Positions 1,823-60,267 of a stretch of 64,000 bases of DNA are shown here, piece by piece. The first letter of the stretch is position 1, and each line of letters starts with the position of its first letter. The DNA comes from Sorex araneus (lineage: Eukaryota; Chordata; Mammalia; Eulipotyphla; Soricidae): assembly GCF_027595985.1 (NCBI RefSeq), contig NC_073305.1, positions 82,144,474 through 82,208,473 of the forward strand, given 5' to 3'. The notes beneath the pieces were generated by a model. It saw only the letters and a list, made by a program, of their open reading frames with translations, searched no databases and had not been told where the DNA came from. Both the position numbers and the translations under genes were made by a program.

Positions 1823-1903
1823 GAGAAGCCTTAATCATGTTTAACTTAAAAACCACACACTTCTGGTTTGACCTAACTAAAGATTGAGTCTAAAGCAAAA
1901 CGG

Positions 1904-2090
1904 AGGCTGGAATGATAGCATAGCAGGTAGGGCGTTTGCCTTGCACGTGGCCGACCCGGGTTCAATTCCCAGCATCCCATATGGTCCCCTGAGCACTGCC
2001 AGGGGTAATTCCTGAGTGCAGAGCCAAGGAGTGACCCCTGTGCATTGCCAGGTGTGACCCATAAAACAAACAAACAAACAAACAAAAAGA
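1904..2090 (+). mobile_element. SINE type I, well preserved
   Basis: It runs from GGCTGGAATGATAGCATAGC (A box), through GGGTTCAATTCC (B box) and CATATGGTCCCCTGAGC, to a (CAAA)n tail. Confidence 0.9.
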
Positions 2091-3150: not shown

Positions 3151-3166
3151 ACAAAAAAGAAAATTT

Positions 3167-3410
3167 AGCACAGCAGGTAGGGCGTTTGCCTTGCATGCGG
3201 CCAACCGAGTTCGATTCATTCTTCCCTCTCGGACAGCCCAGCAAGCTACCGAGAGTATCTCGCCCGCACGGCAGAGCCTGGCAAGCTACCCGTGCCATAT
3301 TCAACATGCCAAAAACAGTAACAACAAGTCTCACAATGGAGATGTTACTGGTGCCCGCTCGAGCAAGTCGATGAGCAATGGGATGACAGTAATGCAGTGA
3401 TACATACAGT
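3167..3410 (+). mobile_element. SINE type II (RTE-tailed)
   Basis: The head lacks its first bases. The type II body (CTCTCGGACAGCCCAGCAAG, then the repeated GGCAAGCTACC) leads to GCCAAAAACAGTAACAACAAG and the LINE-derived GGAGATGTTACTGGTGCCCG. It ends GATGACAGTAATGCAGTGAT with no poly(A). Confidence 0.88.
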
Positions 3411-4671: not shown

Positions 4672-4926
4672 GGGGCTGGAGCTATAGTGCAGCAGGTAGG
4701 ACATTTGCCTTGCATGTGGCTGACCCAGGTTCGATTCCTCTGCCCCTCTCAGAGAGCCCGGCAAGCTACCAAGAGTATCCCGCCCGCACGGCAGAGCCTG
4801 GCAAGCTACCTGTGGCATATTAGATATGCCAAAAAACAATAACAAGTCTCACAATGGAGATGTTACTGGTGCCCGCTCGAGCAAATCGATGAGCAACGGG
4901 ATGACAGTGACAGCGACAGTTGTACA
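4672..4926 (+). mobile_element. SINE type II, full length
   Basis: Complete from GGGGCTGGAGCTATAGTGCA through GGTTCGATTCCTCTGCCCC and both GGCAAGCTACC repeats to the LINE-derived end (GGTGCCCGCTCGAGCAAATC), finishing in GACAGTGACAGCGACAG. Confidence 0.93.
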
Positions 4927-13611: not shown

Positions 13612-13858
13612 ATGATGTGATAGCACAGCGGATAGGGTGGTTGCCTTGCACGTGGCCGACCCGGGTTCAATTCCTCCGTCCCCTCAGAGAGCTTGACAAA
13701 CTACTGACAATATCCTGCCCCCATGGCAGAGCCTGGCAAGCTACCCGTGTCATATTCTATATGCCAAAAACAGTAACAAGTCTCACAATGGAGACATTCC
13801 TGGTGCCCGCTTGAGCAAATCGATGAATGACTGGATGACAGTGCTACAGTGCTACCAC
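13612..13858 (+). mobile_element. SINE type II
   Basis: TGATGTGATAGCACAGCGGA head, CTCCGTCCCCTCAGAGAGC body and LINE-derived TTCCTGGTGCCCGCTTGAGC. It ends in GTGCTACAGTGCTACC, a variant of the tail repeat. Confidence 0.9.
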
Positions 13859-18618: not shown

Positions 18619-18872
18619 AGGGCTGGAGCGATAGCACAGTGGTATGGTGTTTGCCTTGCACGCAGCTGACCTGGGTTCGATTCCTCCGCCCCTCTCGCAG
18701 AGCCTGGCAAGCTACCGAGAGTATCTCCCCCACACGGCAGAGCCTGACAAGGTCCCCGTGGCGTATTCAATATGCCAAAAACAGTAACAAGTCTCACAAT
18801 GACGACGTTACTGGTGCCCACTCAAAGCAAATCAATGAGCAACAGGATGACAGTGATAGTGACAGTACCTAT
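18619..18872 (+). mobile_element. SINE type II
   Basis: Full-length head (GGGCTGGAGCGATAGCACAG), type II body and LINE-derived end, tail GTGATAGTGACAGTACC. It faces an inverted copy 25 bp away. Confidence 0.92.
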
Positions 18873-18897
18873 GATGGACTGCTACTTAATAACTCAT

Positions 18898-19147
18898 CAC
18901 TGTATCACTGTATCACTGTCATCCCATTGTTCATTGATTTGCTCTAGCGGGCACCAGTAATGTCTCCATTGTGAGACTTGTTACTGTTTTTGGCATATCG
19001 AATATGCCACAGGTAGCTTGCCCGGCTCTGCCATGCGGGTGAGATACTCCTGGTAGCTTACCCGGCTCTCCAAGAGGGATGGAAGAATTGAACCCCGAGT
19101 CGGCCACTTGCAGGCAAACGCCCTACCTACTGTGCTATCACTTTGAC
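18898..19147 (-). mobile_element. SINE type II, inverted partner
   Basis: It begins with inverted tail repeats (CACTGTATCACTGTATCACT) and runs to GTGCTATCACTTTGAC. With 18619-18872 it forms an inverted repeat with roughly 250-bp arms. Confidence 0.92.
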
Positions 19148-20363: not shown

Positions 20364-20790
20364 TAGGGGCTGGAGAGATAGCATAGAGATAAAACACAGG
20401 GTTTAAGGCACTTGCAAGGACTGGAACGATAGCACAGCAGGTAGGGCATTTGCTTTGCACGAGGCTGACCCGGGTTCGATTCCTCCGTCCCTCTCAGAAA
20501 GCCCCGAAAGTTACCAAGAGTATCTCGTCCGCACGGCAGAGCCTGGCAAGCTACCCATGGAGTATTTGATATGCCAAAAACAGTAACAACAAAGTCTCAC
20601 AATGGAAACGTGCCTAGTACCCGTTTGAGCAAATCGATGAACAATGGGATGACAGTGCGACAGTGCTACAGTGCCCTTCATACTGGCCAATCACAGTTGG
20701 CCCCACACTGCATATGGTCCCCCAGCAACACCAAGAGTGACATCTGAGCATAGAGCCGTGAGTATAGCCAGGTGTTCCCCAAAACCTATA
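20364..20790 (+). mobile_element. SINE type I split by a type II SINE
   Basis: Head half at 20364-20417 (GGGGCTGGAGAGATAGCATA). The remainder resumes near 20673 (CATATGGTCCCCCAGCAACA to CCAGGTGTTCCCCAAAACC). Confidence 0.75.
20418..20672 (+). mobile_element. SINE type II nested in type I
   Basis: GGACTGGAACGATAGCACAG to GACAGTGCGACAGTGCTACA. The LINE-derived end is mutated (GGAAACGTGCCTAGTACCCG). Confidence 0.88.
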
Positions 20791-20913: not shown

Positions 20914-21081
20914 TGGGGCTGGAAGGATAGTACAGTGGGTAGGGCACTGGCCTTGAGCATGGCCAACCTGGGTTCGATTCCCAGCACCCCATATGGTCCC
21001 TGATCATCACCATGAGTAATTCCTGAGTGAAGACCATGGCTGGGGGTGATTAAAACAAAACAAACAAACAAACATAAAACA
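20914..21081 (+). mobile_element. SINE type I, with TSD
   Basis: TGGGGCTGGAAGGATAGTAC to a (CAAA)n tail. TSD GTGGTTRTTCTTC lies at 20901-20913 and 21082-21094 (one mismatch). Confidence 0.92.
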
Positions 21082-22310: not shown

Positions 22311-22342
22311 GATTTTATAGATTTGCATAGCATTCTCAAGTG

Positions 22343-22569
22343 GTAGGGTATTTGCCTTGCACACGGCCAATCCGGGTTCAATTCCTCCACCCTTCTTGGA
22401 GAGCCTGGCAAGCTACCAAGAGTATCTCGCCTGCATGGCAGAGCCTGGCAAGCTACCTGTGGAGTATTCAATATGCCAAAAACAGTATCAAGTCTCATGA
22501 TAGAGTTCTTCCTGGTGCCTGTTCAAGCAAATAGATGAGCAAGGGGATGACAGTGACACTGACAGTGAC
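22343..22569 (+). mobile_element. 5'-truncated SINE type II with perfect TSD
   Basis: It starts at GTAGGGTATTTGCC, so the start of the head including most of the A box is missing. It ends GACAGTGACACTGACAGTGA without poly(A). The perfect 14-bp TSD AGCATTCTCAAGTG lies at 22329-22342 and 22570-22583. Confidence 0.93.
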
Positions 22570-22920: not shown

Positions 22921-22967
22921 GCAAAGATTCTCATACATACATATGTGTGTGTATATATACATATGTA

Positions 22968-23205
22968 TCACTGTATCACTGTCACCCCATTGTTAATCCA
23001 TTTGCTAGAGCAGATGCCAGTAACATCTCCATTCATCCCTGTTGCATGCTAGCATAGTGTAGCCCGATGGCATATTGGGGGCTCTTTCAGGGTCAGGGAG
23101 ATGAGGACCGTCATTTGTTACTTTTTTTTTGGCATATCGTATATGCCACGGATAGCTTGCCAGGCTCTGCTGTGCATGCAGTATACTGTCTGAGAGGGAC
23201 ATGGA
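22968..23205 (-). mobile_element. SINE type III (longer LINE-derived 3' part)
   Basis: It starts with inverted tail (GTATCACTGTATCACTGTCA). Before the type II body it carries an inverted extra segment (GTGTAGCCCGATGGC, GGGGGCTCTTTCAGGGTCAG). This matches the plus-strand copy at 38190-38394. Confidence 0.82.
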
Positions 23206-23880: not shown

Positions 23881-23928
23881 TCATTTTCCATCTATTTATT
23901 AAAGTTAACATTCTCCAATGCTATGTCC

Positions 23929-24172
23929 TGGAGCAATAGCACGGCGGGTAGGGCGTTTGCCTTGCATGCGGCCGACCCAGGTTCCATTCCTCTGTCCCTC
24001 CCGGAGAGCCCAGCAAGCTACTGAGAATATCCCGCCCACACGACAGAGCCTGGTAAGCTATCCATGGCATATTCAATAGGCCAAAACCAGTTATAACAAG
24101 TCTCACAATGGAGAAGTTACTGGTGCCCGCTCGAGCAAATCAATGAACAATGGGACGAAACTGCTACAGTGC
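23929..24172 (+). mobile_element. SINE type II
   Basis: TCCTGGAGCAATAGCACGGC head, CTCTGTCCCTCCCGGAGAGC body and TACTGGTGCCCGCTCGAGCA. The tail GACGAAACTGCTACAGTGCT is altered. Confidence 0.9.
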
Positions 24173-24327
24173 TAACGTTCTCTGGTACATTTATTTAGAC
24201 CAGTTATTTGGAAAAACAGAAATATGATTTAAACTAGTTCAGACCAAAGGGTATTAAATCAAGTATGAATTTTGGATTAATGTAGTCATTGTTTCATGAG
24301 CTTTCACATTTTAAGCAATATTTTGCT

Positions 24328-25186: not shown

Positions 25187-25372
25187 TTTTTTTTTTTTTT
25201 TTTTTTTTGCTTTTTGGGTCACACCCAGCGATGCTCAGGGGTTACTCCTGGCTCTGCACTCAGGAATTACTCCTGGCGGTACTCGGGGGACCATATGGGA
25301 TGCCGGGGACCGAACCCGGGTCGGGCGCGTGCAAGGCAAACGCCCTACCCGCTGTGCTATCGCTCCGGCCCC
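25187..25372 (-). mobile_element. Youngest-looking SINE type I
   Basis: It is CpG-rich throughout the head (CGAACCCGGGTCGGGCGCG, CTATCGCTCCGGCCCC) with a long T-run. TSD AGTGTGAAGGATTTTTG (17 bp, perfect) lies at 25170-25186 and 25373-25389. Confidence 0.96.
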
Positions 25373-26694: not shown

Positions 26695-26850
26695 ATAACA
26701 AACGAATGAACGGTTTGAGGCTTTTCATGTTCCTGGAATGAGCAGACACCATTGGGCTACACTAGCAGCGACAGGGACAAATGGAGACATTACTGGCGCA
26801 CCCTCGAGCAAATCGATGAACAACGCGGGATGACAAGTGATACAAATGAT
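26695..26850 (+). mobile_element. Truncated RTE-like LINE 3' end, with TSD
   Basis: Within 156 bp the plus strand encodes, in shifted pieces, [20 protein letters not shown] and WRHYWRTLEQIDEQ, which is the C-terminus of an RTE-like LINE protein. It ends GATGACAAGTGATACAAATG (stop plus short tail repeat, no poly-A). The perfect 11-bp TSD ACCCCCAAATA lies at 26684-26694 and 26851-26861. It inserted into an old L1. Confidence 0.85.
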
Positions 26851-27283
26851 ACCCCCAAATAGCATTAATTTTACTTCTCCCTTCTCCGACTTGGATTTCT
26901 TTAAAAAAATTTTTTTTTCTAGTCTACTTGCCCCATTTCTCTTCCAAAGTCTTTAAGCAGCAGGGGTGAGGGGGGACTTGCTTGCCTTATTTCCAGATCT
27001 TACTGAAAAAGCTTTGAGTTTCCTGTCATGGAATATGATGTTAACTTAAGTTTTGTTTGCCATGACCTTTATTATGTTGAAATATGTTCCTTCTAAGCTA
27101 CGTTCCAACTCGTGAAATGCTCTGCTGAGGATTTTGCATCTATGTTCACCAGTGTCATCAGCCAGTAGTTTTTTTGGTGGGGGGGTGGGTTTGGTTCAAT
27201 TTTTTTTTTTTTGTATAACTACTTCCTGGTTTAGGATGTAAGTGAGTTGGGTCCCACAGAATGTGCTTAAGACTGTACCATTC

Positions 27284-34289: not shown

Positions 34290-34543
34290 ATAGCACTGCT
34301 GTTGCACTGTTGTTCCATTCTTCATCAATTCGCTTGAGTGGGCACCAGTAAAGTCTTCATTGTGAGCCTTGTTGTTACTGTTTTTGGCATATTGAATACA
34401 CCCCGAGTAGCTTGACAGGCTCTGCCATGCAGGCAGGATACTCTCAGTAGCTTGCCAGGCTCTCCGAGAGGTACGGAGGAATCGAACCTGGGTCGGCCAT
34501 GTGCAAGGCAAATGCCCTACATGCTGTGCTATTGCTCCAGCCC
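34290..34543 (-). mobile_element. SINE type II
   Basis: Inverted order: TTCGCTTGAGTGGGCACCAG, GTTACTGTTTTTGGCATATT, two GTAGCTTG repeats, GGAATCGAACCTGGGTCGGC and GCTATTGCTCCAGCCC. Confidence 0.92.
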
Positions 34544-37241: not shown

Positions 37242-37257
37242 TATGCTTGCCTTGAAT

Positions 37258-37330
37258 CGATAAGCCAAAAACAGTAACAAGTCTCACAATGGTGCCCGCT
37301 CAAGTAAGTCAATGAACAACGGGACAACAG
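37258..37330 (+). mobile_element. 73-bp tail-only type II SINE with perfect TSD
   Basis: It contains only the 3' part (GCCAAAAACAGTAACAAGTC, GGTGCCCGCTCAAG, terminal GGGACAACAG) with no tRNA head and no poly(A). The perfect 14-bp TSD TGCTTGCCTTGAAT lies at 37244-37257 and 37331-37344. Confidence 0.92.
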
Positions 37331-37475
37331 TGCTTGCCTTGAATGTAGCTGACTGGGATTTAATCACGGCATCATGTATGGTCCATTGAGCACCACCAGG
37401 AGTGATCCCCAAACACAGTCAGAAGTTAGTCAGTCCCTTAACCCAGCAGGATGTGGCCTCCTCCATCAAAAAATA

Positions 37476-38127
37476 AACAAACAACAAAACATAACAGATG
37501 GAGGAAGAATCTAACATAGAAATGGTTTCATTGGTGATGGAAATGAGAAAATAGAGACTGGTGAGAACTCCAGTCATTTATCAAAAGTAAGTGGCATCTT
37601 AGCTCCTAAACTGCCGGGGTGCAGGGTGGAGTTAGCTGGTGGATGTAGGGAATATGTAGAATTCCCTAAGTTCAGGATCAACTAGCTGAAATCAAAACCT
37701 GACAGGTTTTGATTGTAGTAGAGGCAGAAGCTAGAGGCAGGTGGTAGATACTGGAGATGCTGCTAGAGTGAGAGGATAAGGATGGGGTTGGGCATGTCCA
37801 ACTTATCTCTTCCCTTTGTACTGGTTTCCAGTGCTGTTGTAATGAATTCCCTGGCTTAAAACTGTACAAATCTATAATTTTACCATTTGTTTGTTCAGAA
37901 GTCTGAATCAGGCCTCACTGGGAGAAGATGTCAGCAGGATCACATTTCTTTCTGGAGCTCTGGAAGAGAACTTGTTTTCCCCAGCCTCTACTAACTTCTG
38001 TGTCTCCTTACTTTACATTGCTTTACCATGTCTCCTTACTGCTTCAAAGTCAGCAATGTTGCTCATTTCTTCCCCAATGCAGCCTTTACTTCCCCAATAT
38101 CTGACTCCTTCTCCTACTTTTATTCTT
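37476..38127. other. Unique stretch
   Basis: No gene supported. Confidence 0.4.
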
Positions 38128-38520
38128 TTGTTTTTGGGAGCACTTCTGGCAGTGCTCAGGGAACAATTTCAGGTTATATGTTCAAAAGCCTGGCTAAGCC
38201 TGGCAAGTTACATTTGGCATACTCGATATGCCAAAAACAGTAACAACGATGGTCCTCATTTTTCTGACCCTGAAAGAGCCCCCAATACGCCATCGGGCTA
38301 CACTAGCATACGACAGGGACAAATGGAGACGTTACTGGTGCCTGCTCGAGTAAATCGATGAACAACGGGATGACAGTGATACAGAGATACAGTGATGTTC
38401 AGAAGCCATATCTGGCGGTGACCTGGCCATACTTGGCACCAGGATTTAAACCATTGTCAAGGCCGCAGCTGTACATAAGGCCAGTTCCTGACATTGGTAC
38501 TATTACTCCAGCACCTACCC
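38128..38520 (-). repeat. Old SINE type I hosting a type III SINE
   Basis: 38128-38170 (GGGAGCACTTCTGGCAGTGC) and 38395-38520 (GGATTTAAACCATTGTC, TACTCCAGCACC) look like parts of one decayed minus-strand SINE. Confidence 0.5.
38190..38394 (+). mobile_element. SINE type III
   Basis: No head. It starts in the type II body (GCCTGGCAAGTTACATTTGG), passes GCCAAAAACAGTAACAACGA and then TCTGACCCTGAAAGAGCCCC. It then carries the longer LINE-derived part (CGGGCTACACTAGC, GACAGGGACAAATGGAGACG), which reads RATLAYDRDKWRRYW. Tail GTGATACAGAGATACAGTGA. Confidence 0.85.
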
Positions 38521-39704: not shown

Positions 39705-39717
39705 CATGTGAAAAGTA

Positions 39718-39961
39718 GCACTGCAGCACTGTTGTCCCGTTGTTCATCGATTTGCTCTAGCAGGTACCAGTAATGTCTCCATTGTGAGATTTGTTACTGT
39801 TTTTGACATATCGAATACGCCAGAGGTATCTTGCCAGGCTCTGCCGTGCGGGCAGGATACTCTCAGTAGCTTGCTGGGCTTTCCAAGAGGGACGGAGGAA
39901 TCGAACCCGGGTCGACTGTGTGCAAGGCAAACACCCTACCTGCTGTGCTATCGCTTCAGCC
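39718..39961 (-). mobile_element. SINE type II, with perfect TSD
   Basis: Inverted, full length (tail GCACTGCAGCACTGTTGTCC; head GTGCTATCGCTTCAGCC). TSD CATGTGAAAAGTA lies at 39705-39717 and 39962-39974. A full-length type II copy also lacks poly(A). Confidence 0.95.
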
Positions 39962-41812: not shown

Positions 41813-41848
41813 AATACACACACACACACACACGCACTCACACACACG
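41813..41848 (+). repeat. (CA)n microsatellite
   Basis: About 36 bp with two interruptions, directly before a SINE fragment. Confidence 0.9.
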
Positions 41849-42070
41849 GAAGAGCCTGGCAAGCTCTCCGTGGTATATTCAACATGCTAAATACAGTAAC
41901 AATAACAGGTCTCAGTCCCCTAAACCTGAAAAGAGCCTCCAGTCATTGGGAAAAACGAGTAAGGAGAGGCTACTAAAATCTCAGGGCTGGGATGAATGGA
42001 GACATTATTGGTGCCCACTCGAGTAAATCGATAAACAACGGGATGACAGTGACTGTGACAGTGACAGTGA
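41849..42070 (+). mobile_element. SINE type III variant (with 'GGGAAAGATGAG' segment)
   Basis: No head; starts GGAAGAGCCTGGCAAGCTCT. Between AGTAACAATAACAGGTCTCA and GGAGACATTATTGGTGCCCA it has an extra segment (CCCCTAAACCTGAAAAGAGC, GAGTAAGGAGAGGCTACTAA, ATCTCAGGGCTGGGATGAA). The same segment occurs at 44490-44582. Confidence 0.82.
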
Positions 42071-42785: not shown

Positions 42786-42962
42786 AGGGCTGGAGCGATA
42801 GCACAGTGGGGAGGGCATTTGCCTTGCAACTGGCCGACCCGGGTTTGATTCCCAGCATCCCATATGGTTCCCCGAGCACTGCCAGGAGAAATTCTGAGTT
42901 CAGAGCCAGGAGAAACCCCTGTGCATCGCTGGGTGTGACCCAAAAAGCAAAAAAAAAAAAAA
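42786..42962 (+). mobile_element. SINE type I, young, with TSD
   Basis: AGGGCTGGAGCGATAGCACA to a GCAAAAAA tail. TSD AAATTAAACTGTCTT lies at 42771-42785 and 42963-42977. Confidence 0.95.
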
Positions 42963-42986
42963 AAATTAAACTGTCTTGTAGATGAA

Positions 42987-43178: not shown

Positions 43179-44299
43179 ATTTTTGGCTTCAACATGTAAC
43201 AGTAATGATAATAACATAACCCTATTTCTATGTTATAAAATATATGGCTATTATGTGAACTGTAAATGGCAGAGTGTCATTGTGCTTGCAAGTGTTAAGT
43301 GATTATCATGCCTTTGATTCCATGTTATAGTATAAATCCATTGTTATTCCAGAAGTGTTTAAATATATCATGAGACCAAAATGTGCACTATTTCATTTTA
43401 CTAACTCGATGGCTTAGATGGAGAACCTGAGAGAGTTTGAAAATAGTAAAATTATTTGCCTTGTGTTGTAATCCAAAACTAGACAGACAGAAGGCACTTT
43501 TATAAGAGCATGCCTCATCATTTTATAAAATTATACCTTAGCTTGCTTTCAGTTTATTTTGATCTCTTGCTATGTTTTTGTGTTTGCTTTTTTTTTTATT
43601 TTGCAAGTTGCTTAAATATGCATTTGAAAATAATCTCTCTAGGCCAATATGATTGAATTGTACTAATTAGAATTTTTGTAGGGGAGAGGAATGAGGTAGC
43701 ACATACTCTGAGCAGTGTTTGACCCATCAGTTTACAGCATATATTTCAGCATCTTTGTTTTATTTATGTTTACAAACAAAATGAGATTTGTGTGTTTAAA
43801 ATCAAGGTTTTTCATGTTATAGAACGAACATTAGAACCATCGTATTATTATGGTTTATCATATTTTATGAAAAAAATTTTTAAATGGGACTCAATGGAAC
43901 TCGGAAGCAGAGATCCTCTGCTTGCTATCTGTGACCCAGGGATCACACTTATAAGCCAAATCCTGCCACACCCTGCCTCCTCATTGTCCGCCCTCCAGAT
44001 CTCAATGGCTGCTCCTCCCGATGGGAGGGAGTATAAAATGAGGCCCCCATAGTCATGCCACCAGACTCTGAGCCAGGCTATTTTTACTCAGGGCACCCCA
44101 GAGGGGGACAGGTAAGAACCCTCCCCACCCCAAGGGACTCAGCCCCCGCAGCTGACCTCCACTACCCAACTCTACTCCACGGTCCAGGCTGCTTTCACAT
44201 TATAAAGACACTTAATAGCCATTTTCCATAATTACCACACCATATTTGATGGAGTTAAGACAGTAGGCAACAAATCATAGACAGTAATATATATATATG
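43179..44299. other. About 1.1 kb without SINEs
   Basis: AT-rich to 43890, then a GC-richer block (43890-44180) with a TATA box and splice donor (separate entry). A weak MIR-like phrase (GATGGAGAACCTGAGAGAG) occurs near 43410. Confidence 0.45.
44032..44117 (+). promoter_or_regulatory. Candidate TATA promoter and first exon with splice donor
   Basis: TATAAAA at 44032-44038 lies in GC-richer unique sequence. A start about 25-30 bp downstream would give an exon of roughly 50 bases ending at the strong donor GACAG|GTAAGA (GT at 44112-44113). No ATG-led coding frame of note lies in that exon, so it would be a noncoding first exon or an LTR-type promoter. Seen: the two motifs and their spacing. 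Inferred: any transcription. Confidence 0.35.
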
Positions 44300-44645
44300 T
44301 TACTGTTACCTCTCAGAAAGCCCAGCAAGCTACCAAGAGTATCCCGCCCACATGGGCAGAGCCTGGCAAGCTACATACCACACACATACCTCTCAGAGAG
44401 CCCAGCAAGCTACCAAGAGTATCCTGCCCACATGGGCAGAGCCTGGCAAGTTACCCGTGGCATATTCAATATGCCAAAAACAGTAACAATAGGTCTCATT
44501 CCCCTGACCCTGAAGAGCCTCCAATCGTTGGGAAAGATGAGTAAGGAGAGGCTGCTAAAATCTCAGGGCTGGGAGGAACAGAGACGTTTACTGGTGCCCG
44601 CTTGAGTAAACTGATGAACATCAAGATGACAGTGACAGTGATTTT
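44300..44645 (+). mobile_element. SINE type III variant with duplicated body
   Basis: The block starting ACCTCTCAGAAAGCCCAGCA is present twice (about 44306-44373 and 44387-44455). Then follow GCCAAAAACAGTAACAATAG, the ~85-bp extra segment shared with 41849-42070, and GTGCCCGCTTGAGTAAACTG. Tail GATGACAGTGACAGTG. Confidence 0.82.
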
Positions 44646-44647
44646 CT

Positions 44648-44868
<221 letters not shown>

Positions 44869-45033
44869 GTTTTCCGGTCACACACGGTGATGTTCAGGGG
44901 TTACTTCTGACTCTGCACACAGGAATTACTCCTGGCAGTGCTCAGGGGACTATATGGGATGCTGGGAATCGAACCCAGGTCAGCTGCGTGCAAGACAAAT
45001 GCCCTACCTGCTGTGCTGTTGCTTTAGCCCCCA
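44869..45033 (-). mobile_element. SINE type I
   Basis: CGGTCACACACGGTGATGTT, GGAATCGAACCCAGGTCAGC and GCTGTTGCTTTAGCCCCC. The usual T-tail is replaced by the tetranucleotide repeat. Confidence 0.88.
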
Positions 45034-49367: not shown

Positions 49368-49609
49368 TGGTCACTGTCATCCCGTTGCTCATCGATTGGT
49401 TTGAGCGGGTACCAGTAACGTCTCTCATTGTGAGACTTATTGTTACTGTTTCTGGCATATCCAATGCACCACGGGTAGCTTGCCAGGCTCTGCTGTGCGG
49501 GCACGATACTCTCGGTAGCTTGCCGGGCTCTCCGAGAGGGGCGGAGGAATTGAACTTGGGTCAGCCACGTGAAAGGCAAACGCCCTACCTCTGTGCTATC
49601 GCTCCAGCC
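49368..49609 (-). mobile_element. SINE type II
   Basis: Full-length inverted copy (CACTGTCATCCCGTTGCTCA to GTGCTATCGCTCCAGCCC). Probable TSD AAGRCATGGT on both sides. Confidence 0.92.
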
Positions 49610-57010: not shown

Positions 57011-57067
57011 AAATTCATACTGAGACAGAATGAAAGATTGACAGTGAAACAGGACAATCATAATAAT

Positions 57068-57300
57068 ATGTAGCATTGCACTGCACTGTCATCCAGTTGT
57101 TCATCGATTTGCTCGAGTGGGCATCAGTAATGTCTCCGTTGTGAGACTTGTTACTGTTTTTGGAATATCAAATACGCCACAGGTAGCTTGCCAGGCTCTG
57201 CTGTTCGAGCAGTATAATCTTGGTAGCTTGCCGGGCTCTCCGAGAGGGACGGAGGAATCGAACCCAGGTTGGCCATGTGCAAGGCAAATGTCTACCTGGT
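57068..57300 (-). mobile_element. SINE type II, 5' end truncated
   Basis: Inverted tail (TAGCATTGCACTGCACTGTC), GATTTGCTCGAGTGGGCATC and GGAATCGAACCCAGGTTGGC. It ends at GCAAATGTCTACCTG, so the outermost head is missing. Confidence 0.88.
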
Positions 57301-59335: not shown

Positions 59336-59607
59336 CTAATTTTCAAAAAGGAATGTCCATACTCTTTTCCATATACACTGAATAAATTAAAATTCCAGCA
59401 TTGTATCAGAGTTTCTTTTCTCTACATTTTTTGCTAACAACTTGTTTCCAGTATTTTTTTGATAGTCATTCTCAGTAGTATGAGGTGGTCTTAGTGAGAT
59501 TTTGATTTGTATTTTCATAATAATAATTGATGCTGAATTTTTTTTCATTTGTTTGTGGGCCATCTCTGTCTTTGTTGGAAAACTCTCTTTAGTGTTTTGC
59601 ACCATTC

Positions 59608-60080
59608 TTCTTGTACTAACGTCTGCCTCAGAGACCTGGGCCCCATGAAAACAGGATGAGAATCTATTAGGGTCTCCCAAAGAGGAATGGAAAGAGCTGT
59701 GATTGGAGTATCATGTTTCACTCAAGTGAGAGAAGGAATCCTTCCATCCTCCATCTAGGATTGGTGCCTCCTTTGCCAAGACCTTGAAAATCAGGTGGGC
59801 TGGACACATAATGCAATTTGGAGACTACCGTTGGACTAGAGCCATTACCGAGTGGATTCTACGGGATGTCAAAAGAATGCCTGGCCGACCACCTACGAGA
59901 TGGTCAGACTTCTGTCAAGACCCTGAACGAACGGCTTGAACGAACGGTTTGACGCTCTTTGTGTTCCTGGAGCGAGCAGACACCATTGGGCTACACTAGC
60001 ACTCGACAGGGATGAATGGAGACGTTACTAGTGCCCGCTTGAGCAAATCGAGCAGTGGGATGACAAGTGATACAAGTGTT
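59608..60080 (+). mobile_element. RTE-like LINE fragment (C-terminal ORF and 3' end)
   Basis: In pieces joined by frameshifts, the plus strand encodes the C-terminal part of a non-L1 reverse-transcriptase protein: [87 protein letters not shown] and EQWDDK followed by the stop. The WAGH, RW and GRPPTRW signatures are typical of the C-terminus of RTE-clade elements. The 3' UTR is only a short GTGATACAAGTG-type tail without poly(A). It lies inside old L1 block A; I could not define its TSD. Confidence 0.85.
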
Positions 60081-60267
60081 TGGATTGTTCTTTTTGTTGA
60101 ATTGTGTGGGTATATAATTAATATATAATTTGGATATTAACTCCCTTTGCAGGTGTATGATGTACAGATAGCATATTTCTTCTAATTGCTGTGCTGCCAT
60201 TTATTGGTGGTTTGGTAGTTACTTCTTTTACTGTGCAGAAATTTAAATCTCATGTAATTCTATTTGG

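Follow-up and report, generated by a model that had tools for sequence, protein, structure and literature searches.

The locus at positions 37244-38394 of the DNA studied here, a stretch of 64,000 nucleotides from the shrew Sorex araneus (the window; C4:82144474-82208473 of the assembly), raises the question of whether a single tRNA-derived SINE head has been coupled to two different LINE machineries. A preliminary description of the window had proposed that type I and type II SINEs share one head and then diverge, with type I ending in an A-rich tail and types II and III ending in a piece of an RTE-like LINE. We examined this proposal in the window and in an 80-kb sample made up of eight arbitrarily chosen 10-kb stretches, together 144 kb of a 2.41-Gb assembly with 65 contigs, and at further loci of the genome. 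The results give us high confidence that type II is a genuine family of SINEs in which the tRNA head of type I is joined to a shortened RTE LINE, consisting of a piece of its 5'UTR and its 3' end. The family has a three-part structure with a matching head, lacks poly(A) and carries target-site duplications (TSDs) in part of its copies, and both parts of the tail come from one RTE. The proposal holds in its essentials, and the case for it is stronger than it was put, because nearly the whole non-head part matches one nematode-like RTE.

A shared tRNA head with two kinds of tail

Consensus sequences built from 14 type I and 11 type II window copies bear out the proposed common head and subsequent divergence. 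Both families begin with a tRNA-Ala-like head of about 63 nt and split directly after GGTTCGATTCC. Agreement of the heads runs to ...GACCCGGGTTCGATTCC, with divergence beyond, and up to ...CCGACCCGGGTTCGATTCC the two consensus sequences differ at two sites only, both of the CpG-decay kind. The head contains what we take to be the A and B boxes of a pol III promoter; ARAGORN assigned six SINE heads in the window to tRNA-Ala and one to tRNA-Leu, and Rfam gave one tRNA match in the window. A shrew SINE, SOR, was reportedly described by Borodulina and Kramerov in 2001. The type I consensus includes the shrew SINE primer GATTCCCAGCATCCCATATG, which is printed in the available text of PMC8608897.

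The tails separate the two families. As proposed, the tail of type I is A-rich, with a 20-nt stretch containing at least 14 A in 19 of the 20 listed window copies. Poly(A) tails in type II, which the preliminary description had named as evidence against its own proposal, are not seen: such a stretch occurs in none of the 13 listed window copies. Units of the ACAGTG type are present in all 13 type II and in none of the 20 type I copies on these lists, which omit the type I copy at 20917-21033 and partial copies of types II, III and IV. Within 37244-38394 itself the RTE tail is present, but the shared head is not, since both RTE-tailed copies there are 5'-truncated; the head is visible in type II copies outside this interval, for example at 4674, 18621 and 39961. 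The window copies and LINE fragments are listed below.

37257-37332, plus strand: type II, 5'-truncated and headless, with the end of the RTE 5'UTR and the RTE 3' end; 75% to type II 144-232, 86% to the 3' part of type III
38190-38394, plus strand: type III, 5'-truncated and headless, with an RTE 5'UTR fragment and the 3' end (38287-38390); weak TSD ATGTTCA, 7 nt (13 with one mismatch)
22964-23190, minus strand: type III, RTE 5'UTR and 3' end; 83% to long consensus 1108-1326
26695-26855, plus strand: 5'-truncated RTE LINE 3' end, TSD TACCCCCAAATA, tail GATGACAAGTGATACA
59600-60081, plus strand: RTE LINE fragment, C-terminal region and 3' end (partner LINE); 73% to the L048 copy, with strongylid protein matches
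43887-44642, plus strand: headless composite ('type IV') of leader (long consensus 44-483), tandem RTE 5'UTR pieces and 3' end
41848-42064, plus strand: type IV-like, longer 5'UTR piece and 3' end; 80% to the type IV model
4674-4920, plus strand: full-length type II with head, RTE 5'UTR and 3' end; 91.9% to consensus
18621-18868, plus strand: full-length type II, TSD GTACCTATGAT; ARAGORN tRNA-Ala at 18624-18694
39715-39961, minus strand: full-length type II, TSD TACTTTTCACATG
18898-19142, minus strand: type II
3166-3408, plus strand: type II
13618-13855, plus strand: type II
20421-20673, plus strand: type II
22339-22566, plus strand: type II, head 5'-truncated
23928-24174, plus strand: type II; ARAGORN tRNA-Ala at 23929-24002
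34299-34542, minus strand: type II
49371-49609, minus strand: type II
57067-57298, minus strand: type II
42788-42963, plus strand: type I, poly(A) tail, TSD AAAATTAAACTGTCTT
25188-25370, minus strand: type I, TSD CAAAAATCCTTCACACT
1903-2088, plus strand: type I; ARAGORN tRNA-Ala at 1908-1980

Two of the type II copies lie in opposite orientation 29 bases apart (18621-19142).

The type II consensus consists of the head (positions 1-62), RTE 5'UTR (about 62-170), a few bases, and the RTE 3' end (about 177-245), so that the RTE share comprises about 108 nt of LINE 5'UTR and about 68 nt of LINE 3' end. Positions 62-169 match the sequence upstream of the RTE ORF at 84-94% in five of the eight loci read there (L059 93.5%, L058 90.7%, L057 89.8%, L061 86.1%, L054 84.3%); the match is weaker or partial in the other three, with 77.3% in L055 and only shorter stretches in L060 and L056. 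The arrangement is also seen in an old near-full-length RTE copy found in the 80-kb sample (L048, minus strand, about 9485-6281), where the SINE body immediately precedes the RTE ORF (86% over 86 nt, E 1e-23), while the SINE tail is found at the RTE 3' end (81% over 94 nt). A type I SINE sits inside this copy, and the RTE48 matches at 1653-1821 are that SINE and not RTE. When a 781-nt query spanning 5'UTR and ORF was compared with the genome, all 40 scored matches began at query position 28 or before; these are the best-scoring 40 of 8333 candidates, the query's own place included, and they indicate that the RTE 5'UTR precedes the ORF in many places.

The preliminary description had also held that the peptide at the end of type II is the C-terminal end of the RTE, and had suggested aligning the SINE tail to RTE 3' ends. 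Both points hold: the 3' part of type II translates as WRRYWCPLEQIDEQRDD, and the tail aligns with RTE 3' ends in the window, in L048 and in all four further genomic loci fetched (84-87% over 93-106 nt). The proposed 3'-end sharing in the style of Bov-tA and BovB likewise stands, but it accounts for only part of the element, the body too being RTE 5'UTR, which had been missed. On these alignments nearly the entire non-head part of type II derives from one RTE LINE.

One detail counts against a simple donor story. The terminal repeat unit is ACAGTGAT (or ACAGTGCTAC) in the SINEs and of the ACAAGTGAT type in all nine LINE 3' ends with a recognisable tail (two in the window, and L048, L049, L050, L051, L052, L062 and L063); two more RTE loci, L064 and L065, showed none. 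The exact donor, a LINE variant with the SINE-type tail, was not found among the nine LINE tails compared. SINE and LINE tails differ consistently by one base, the window LINE tails lying at 26820-26850 and 60058-60075.

Headless derivatives and the VAV3 composite

At its 3' end the type III copy 38190-38394 aligns with both RTE fragments of the window, at 26746-26852 (86%, E 3e-28) and at 59980-60074 (83%, E 3e-22), and it also matches type II copies. Types III and IV keep a longer piece of the 5'UTR, and type III also longer 3' pieces, as had been described for type III; the head, however, is seldom present. With the type III copy as query, the best 40 of 5206 genomic candidates were scored (87-100%, the query itself included), and only two of them have the tRNA head. 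Sixteen begin inside the shared body. The other 22 run on in the 5' direction but have no head: eight extend in RTE 5'UTR sequence lying 5' of the SINE junction, seven into a VAV3 exon and seven beyond it. On this count the idea that type III is, as a rule, a tRNA-headed SINE with a longer stretch of LINE was rejected, and many type III loci belong to headless RTE derivatives. For the second type III copy, previously placed at 22968-23205, the RTE 3' end is confirmed, but the copy lies on the minus strand. A TATC/TGTC microsatellite (window 44603-44913) overlaps the end of the composite at 43887-44642, which is headless, and continues behind it.

The exon carried by the longer derivatives reads as Vav-3. 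In a PDB sequence search it matched the Vav-3 structure 2d86 (E 1.7e-37), which refined the CAMSAP_CH/CH matches of an early Pfam scan. The best genomic match is the VAV3 gene itself (C8:57892325-57892531, 94%, no stops; locus L053, G000:C8:57890800-57894300). The other 149 scored matches, the best of 2749 candidates, show 52-86% identity; few were inspected. Most are presumably composites, and the first exons of VAV1 and VAV2 may also be among the 149. Composites in which the VAV3 5'UTR and exon 1 are followed by RTE 5'UTR and RTE 3' end occur at L005, L006, L017, L020, L030 and other loci.

Positions 683-945 of the long consensus match the shrew VAV3 exon 1 locus at 88.6%. The two part after CCCAG (the next GT being common to both), where the gene continues GTAAGG and the element GTGCTGCC. 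In the RTE loci L054 and L056 the sequence CCAACAG is followed by GTGCTGCC, and in L055 by GTGGTTGCC; the stretch joined to CCAACAG is absent from the other five of the eight RTE loci. Capture of genomic VAV3 together with intron 1 was ruled out, as the element departs from the gene at the splice donor. The simplest reading is that VAV3 exon 1 was spliced to an acceptor in the RTE 5'UTR.

In the longest copies a leader of about 680 nt lies upstream of the VAV3 exon. The leader (long consensus 1-483) or parts of it are found with and without the exon, as at window 43887-44260, L047:5136-5500 and L051:2438-2918, and parts of it also precede other RTE sequence (L057, L058, L059, L061, L051). A first exon spliced to a composite retroelement is known from SVA_F1 (MAST2) and from pt_SVA_D6 of the chimpanzee SVAs (STK40), both described in the available text of PMC6139936 as exon capture by splicing. 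The shrew composite differs from these in being RTE-tailed and in the leader that precedes its exon in the longest copies. It would be an instance, beyond the SVAs of primates, in which splicing joined a first exon to a retroelement and retrotransposition then dispersed it.

Insertion sites and mobilisation

TSDs of at least 9 nt were detected in 29 of 56 type I copies (2.3% in a swapped-flank control) and in 5 of 17 type II copies (control 1.8%), and TSDs of at least 8 nt in 12 of 40 type III copies (control 3.7%). Three type III and two type II positives are off-boundary or repetitive, the type III count of 12 including L018, L034 and L040. A clear TSD was not found in the remaining 28 type III (below 8 nt) and 12 type II copies (below 9 nt).

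The preliminary description had suggested comparing the two classes by TSD length and by insertion-site motif. Length failed as a discriminator, with means of 12.4 nt in type I and 11.2 nt in RTE-tailed copies (p = 0.25). The motifs do differ: TSDs begin with three purines in 16 of 28 type I copies and in 1 of 12 RTE-tailed copies (Fisher p = 0.005), where the 28 type I copies are the 29 above with one locus that appears there twice (window and L001) counted once, and their first bases are uncertain, as duplications can merge with A-runs. The 12 RTE-tailed TSDs (three type II, nine type III) leave out the type II copies L008 and L015, whose TSDs lie 17 and 12 nt from the head, and the type III copies L034 and L040, which are off-boundary or repetitive. 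Upstream of the nick, at -7 to -14, the frequency of T is 0.51 in RTE-tailed copies (n = 13), 0.27 in type I (n = 28) and 0.31 on average in the window. These 13 contexts (nine type III, three type II, one RTE) comprise positions that are not independent; wherever the tail overlaps the TSD the nick was placed manually at T|A, which makes T at -1 and A at +1 uninformative, the context at 26695 is shifted by one base, and that of L003 has one mistyped base outside the range used. According to the available text of PMC13295347, RTE-clade LINEs and their SINEs have as their signature a run of thymines about 10 nt upstream, which the T enrichment seen here resembles.

The A-rich tail (19/20) and L1-type target sites (16/28 purine starts) of type I suggest an L1-dependent SINE. 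It is conceivable, though very unlikely in our judgement, that type II is moved by L1 as well, with its RTE sequence as passive baggage captured once. The head identical to that of a poly(A)-tailed SINE and the overlapping TSD lengths would fit such a course, but they have to be set against the A-rich tails in none and the tail repeats in all of the 13 listed type II copies, against the rarity of three-purine starts among RTE-tailed TSDs (1/12), and against the headless RTE derivatives, which share the same tail, have multiplied too and begin at many different points. The likeliest course is mobilisation of types II, III and IV by the RTE enzyme and of type I by L1. The RTE reverse transcriptase would recognise the shared 3' end and copy the RNAs of types II, III and IV, L1 would copy type I by way of its A-tail, and the joins may have formed while the RNA was reverse transcribed, through a template switch or an internal deletion. 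One tRNA head served by what are apparently two LINE enzymes in one genome would allow target choice, truncation and age to be compared while the promoter is constant.

Origin of the LINE, related elements and abundance

The 91-aa C-terminus of the RTE matched 148 proteins, the top one from Heligmosomoides polygyrus (78%). Among the 120 of these that were listed, the named sources are strongylid nematodes with the exception of one Sorex araneus protein; the genera are Heligmosomoides, Haemonchus, Nippostrongylus, Necator, Ancylostoma and Angiostrongylus, all of which we take to be strongylids. That S. araneus protein is FBXO36 isoform X3 (P0022), which carries RTE sequence in its C-terminal part, most likely either an exonised piece of the LINE or an artefact of annotation. 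With the EN region of L048 as query 378 proteins matched, the best of the 120 listed coming from Sorex fumeus (69%) and the remainder including strongylids and S. araneus. In the L048 read-through Pfam gave no endonuclease domain, and RVT_1 matches only below the curated cut-off; the assignment as EN is putative and follows from homologues listed with PF03372. An S. fumeus ORF (P0121) matches Ancylostoma ceylanicum at 74% over 436 aa. The same kind of RTE is seen in this second Sorex in four proteins named S. fumeus (P0121, P0125, P0126, P0225), which on the strength of the protein names only extends the published host list of RTE1_Sar.

By the alignments made here, the likeness to worms is shown for the 3' part of type II and not for the body. 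Alignments of the sequence upstream of the ORF exceeded their shuffle maxima for P0122 (154 against 45), P0123 (142 against 50) and the Necator protein P0131 (78 against 49), with scores of 57 against 50 for Necator P0142 and 48 against 49 for Necator P0132. The first three alignments span the start of the ORF together with just some 14 residues retained by type III, and the type II body reading was not found in any of these five proteins.

The available text of Dunemann and Wasmuth 2019 (PMC6542046) reports a transfer of the element RTE1_Sar between strongylids and S. araneus, and places the shrew element closest to those of Heligmosomoides and Nippostrongylus. The RTE found here and RTE1_Sar are both strongylid-like, a comparison by description rather than sequence and based on the listed matches. 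We infer that they are the same LINE, acquired from nematodes. That the RTE is an ancient mammalian element, passed on by vertical descent but lost in other lineages, and owes its nematode likeness to slow evolution or sampling, is less credible still than mobilisation of type II by L1. PMC6542046, as far as its available text goes, leaves the direction of transfer unproven and the position of the clade weakly supported, which leaves some room for vertical descent; yet its tree nests the shrew element within nematode ones, with none in hedgehog, mole or solenodon reads, the listed matches reach 78% amino acid identity to a nematode and 74% over 436 aa, and no named mammal other than Sorex appears among them (120 of 148 and 120 of 378). 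Least credible of all is that types II and III share with the RTE an older independent repeat that had inserted into the latter. RTE copies do vary in their 5' leader (pieces in L057, L058, L059 and L061), and the type II body was not recovered from nematode proteins, but the 3' part continues the reading frame of a conserved RTE C-terminus that nematode proteins also have, and in 40 scored places (the best 40 of 8333) the body precedes the RTE ORF.

We regard it as reasonably probable that a worm-derived LINE seeded a tRNA-headed SINE of the shrew, headless derivatives and a VAV3 composite at hundreds or thousands of places, amounting to several percent of the genome, with both LINE-derived parts being worm sequence. 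The LINE in question would be the nematode-derived RTE1_Sar. The word SINE does not occur in the main text of PMC6542046.

The plan of such an element is known. Bov-tA, which has a tRNA head, and Bov-A2, which is headless and carries the BovB 5' end, share one LINE 3' end; the first resembles type II and the second types III and IV, whereas the LINE is a different one and the shrew set includes an exon-capturing composite. Bov-tA, Bov-A2, AfroSINEs and Ped-2 are tabulated as SINE/LINE pairs in PMC3747384, in whose available text the words shrew and Sorex are absent. Ped-2 of the springhare has an ID SINE head on a BovB tail, like the shrew element a re-used head with an RTE-clade tail, but the LINE is BovB rather than a strongylid-like RTE, and a 5'UTR part is absent from the Ped-2 entry of that table. 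A bipartite tail is the plan of Bov-tA and of the AviRTE SINEs (ManaSINE1, GymnSINE and others); in the AviRTE SINEs, as in type II, a promoter head is followed by pieces of RTE 5'UTR and 3'UTR. The available text of PMC4844689 links AviRTE to horizontal transfer involving birds and nematodes. The RTE, the heads and the hosts (birds) are different there, and the shrew head also serves a poly(A)-tailed family. Among open-access papers on shrew or RTE SINEs and on VAV3 capture we recognised no earlier description of type II or the composite with VAV3, though either may be listed in subscription papers or in Repbase/Dfam. What makes the set noteworthy is its scale, its donor and a sister element that captured an exon.

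Counting full-length copies, the 144 kb contain 20 of type II and 46 of type I; type II sequence makes up 3.8% of the bases. Scaled to the genome, type II would number about 330,000 copies from the 144 kb, or about 270,000 from the nine full-length copies of the 80-kb sample alone, with a sampling error of about one third, and we put the family at roughly 300,000 copies. The ends of a newcomer LINE in some 300,000 SINE copies would make this a transposon transfer between worm and mammal with a large downstream effect. Identity to the consensus is 91.9% for type I and 89.2% for type II with the window consensus, and 86.3% and 87.8%, respectively, in the 144 kb; the divergence of the two families is similar, so neither is clearly younger.
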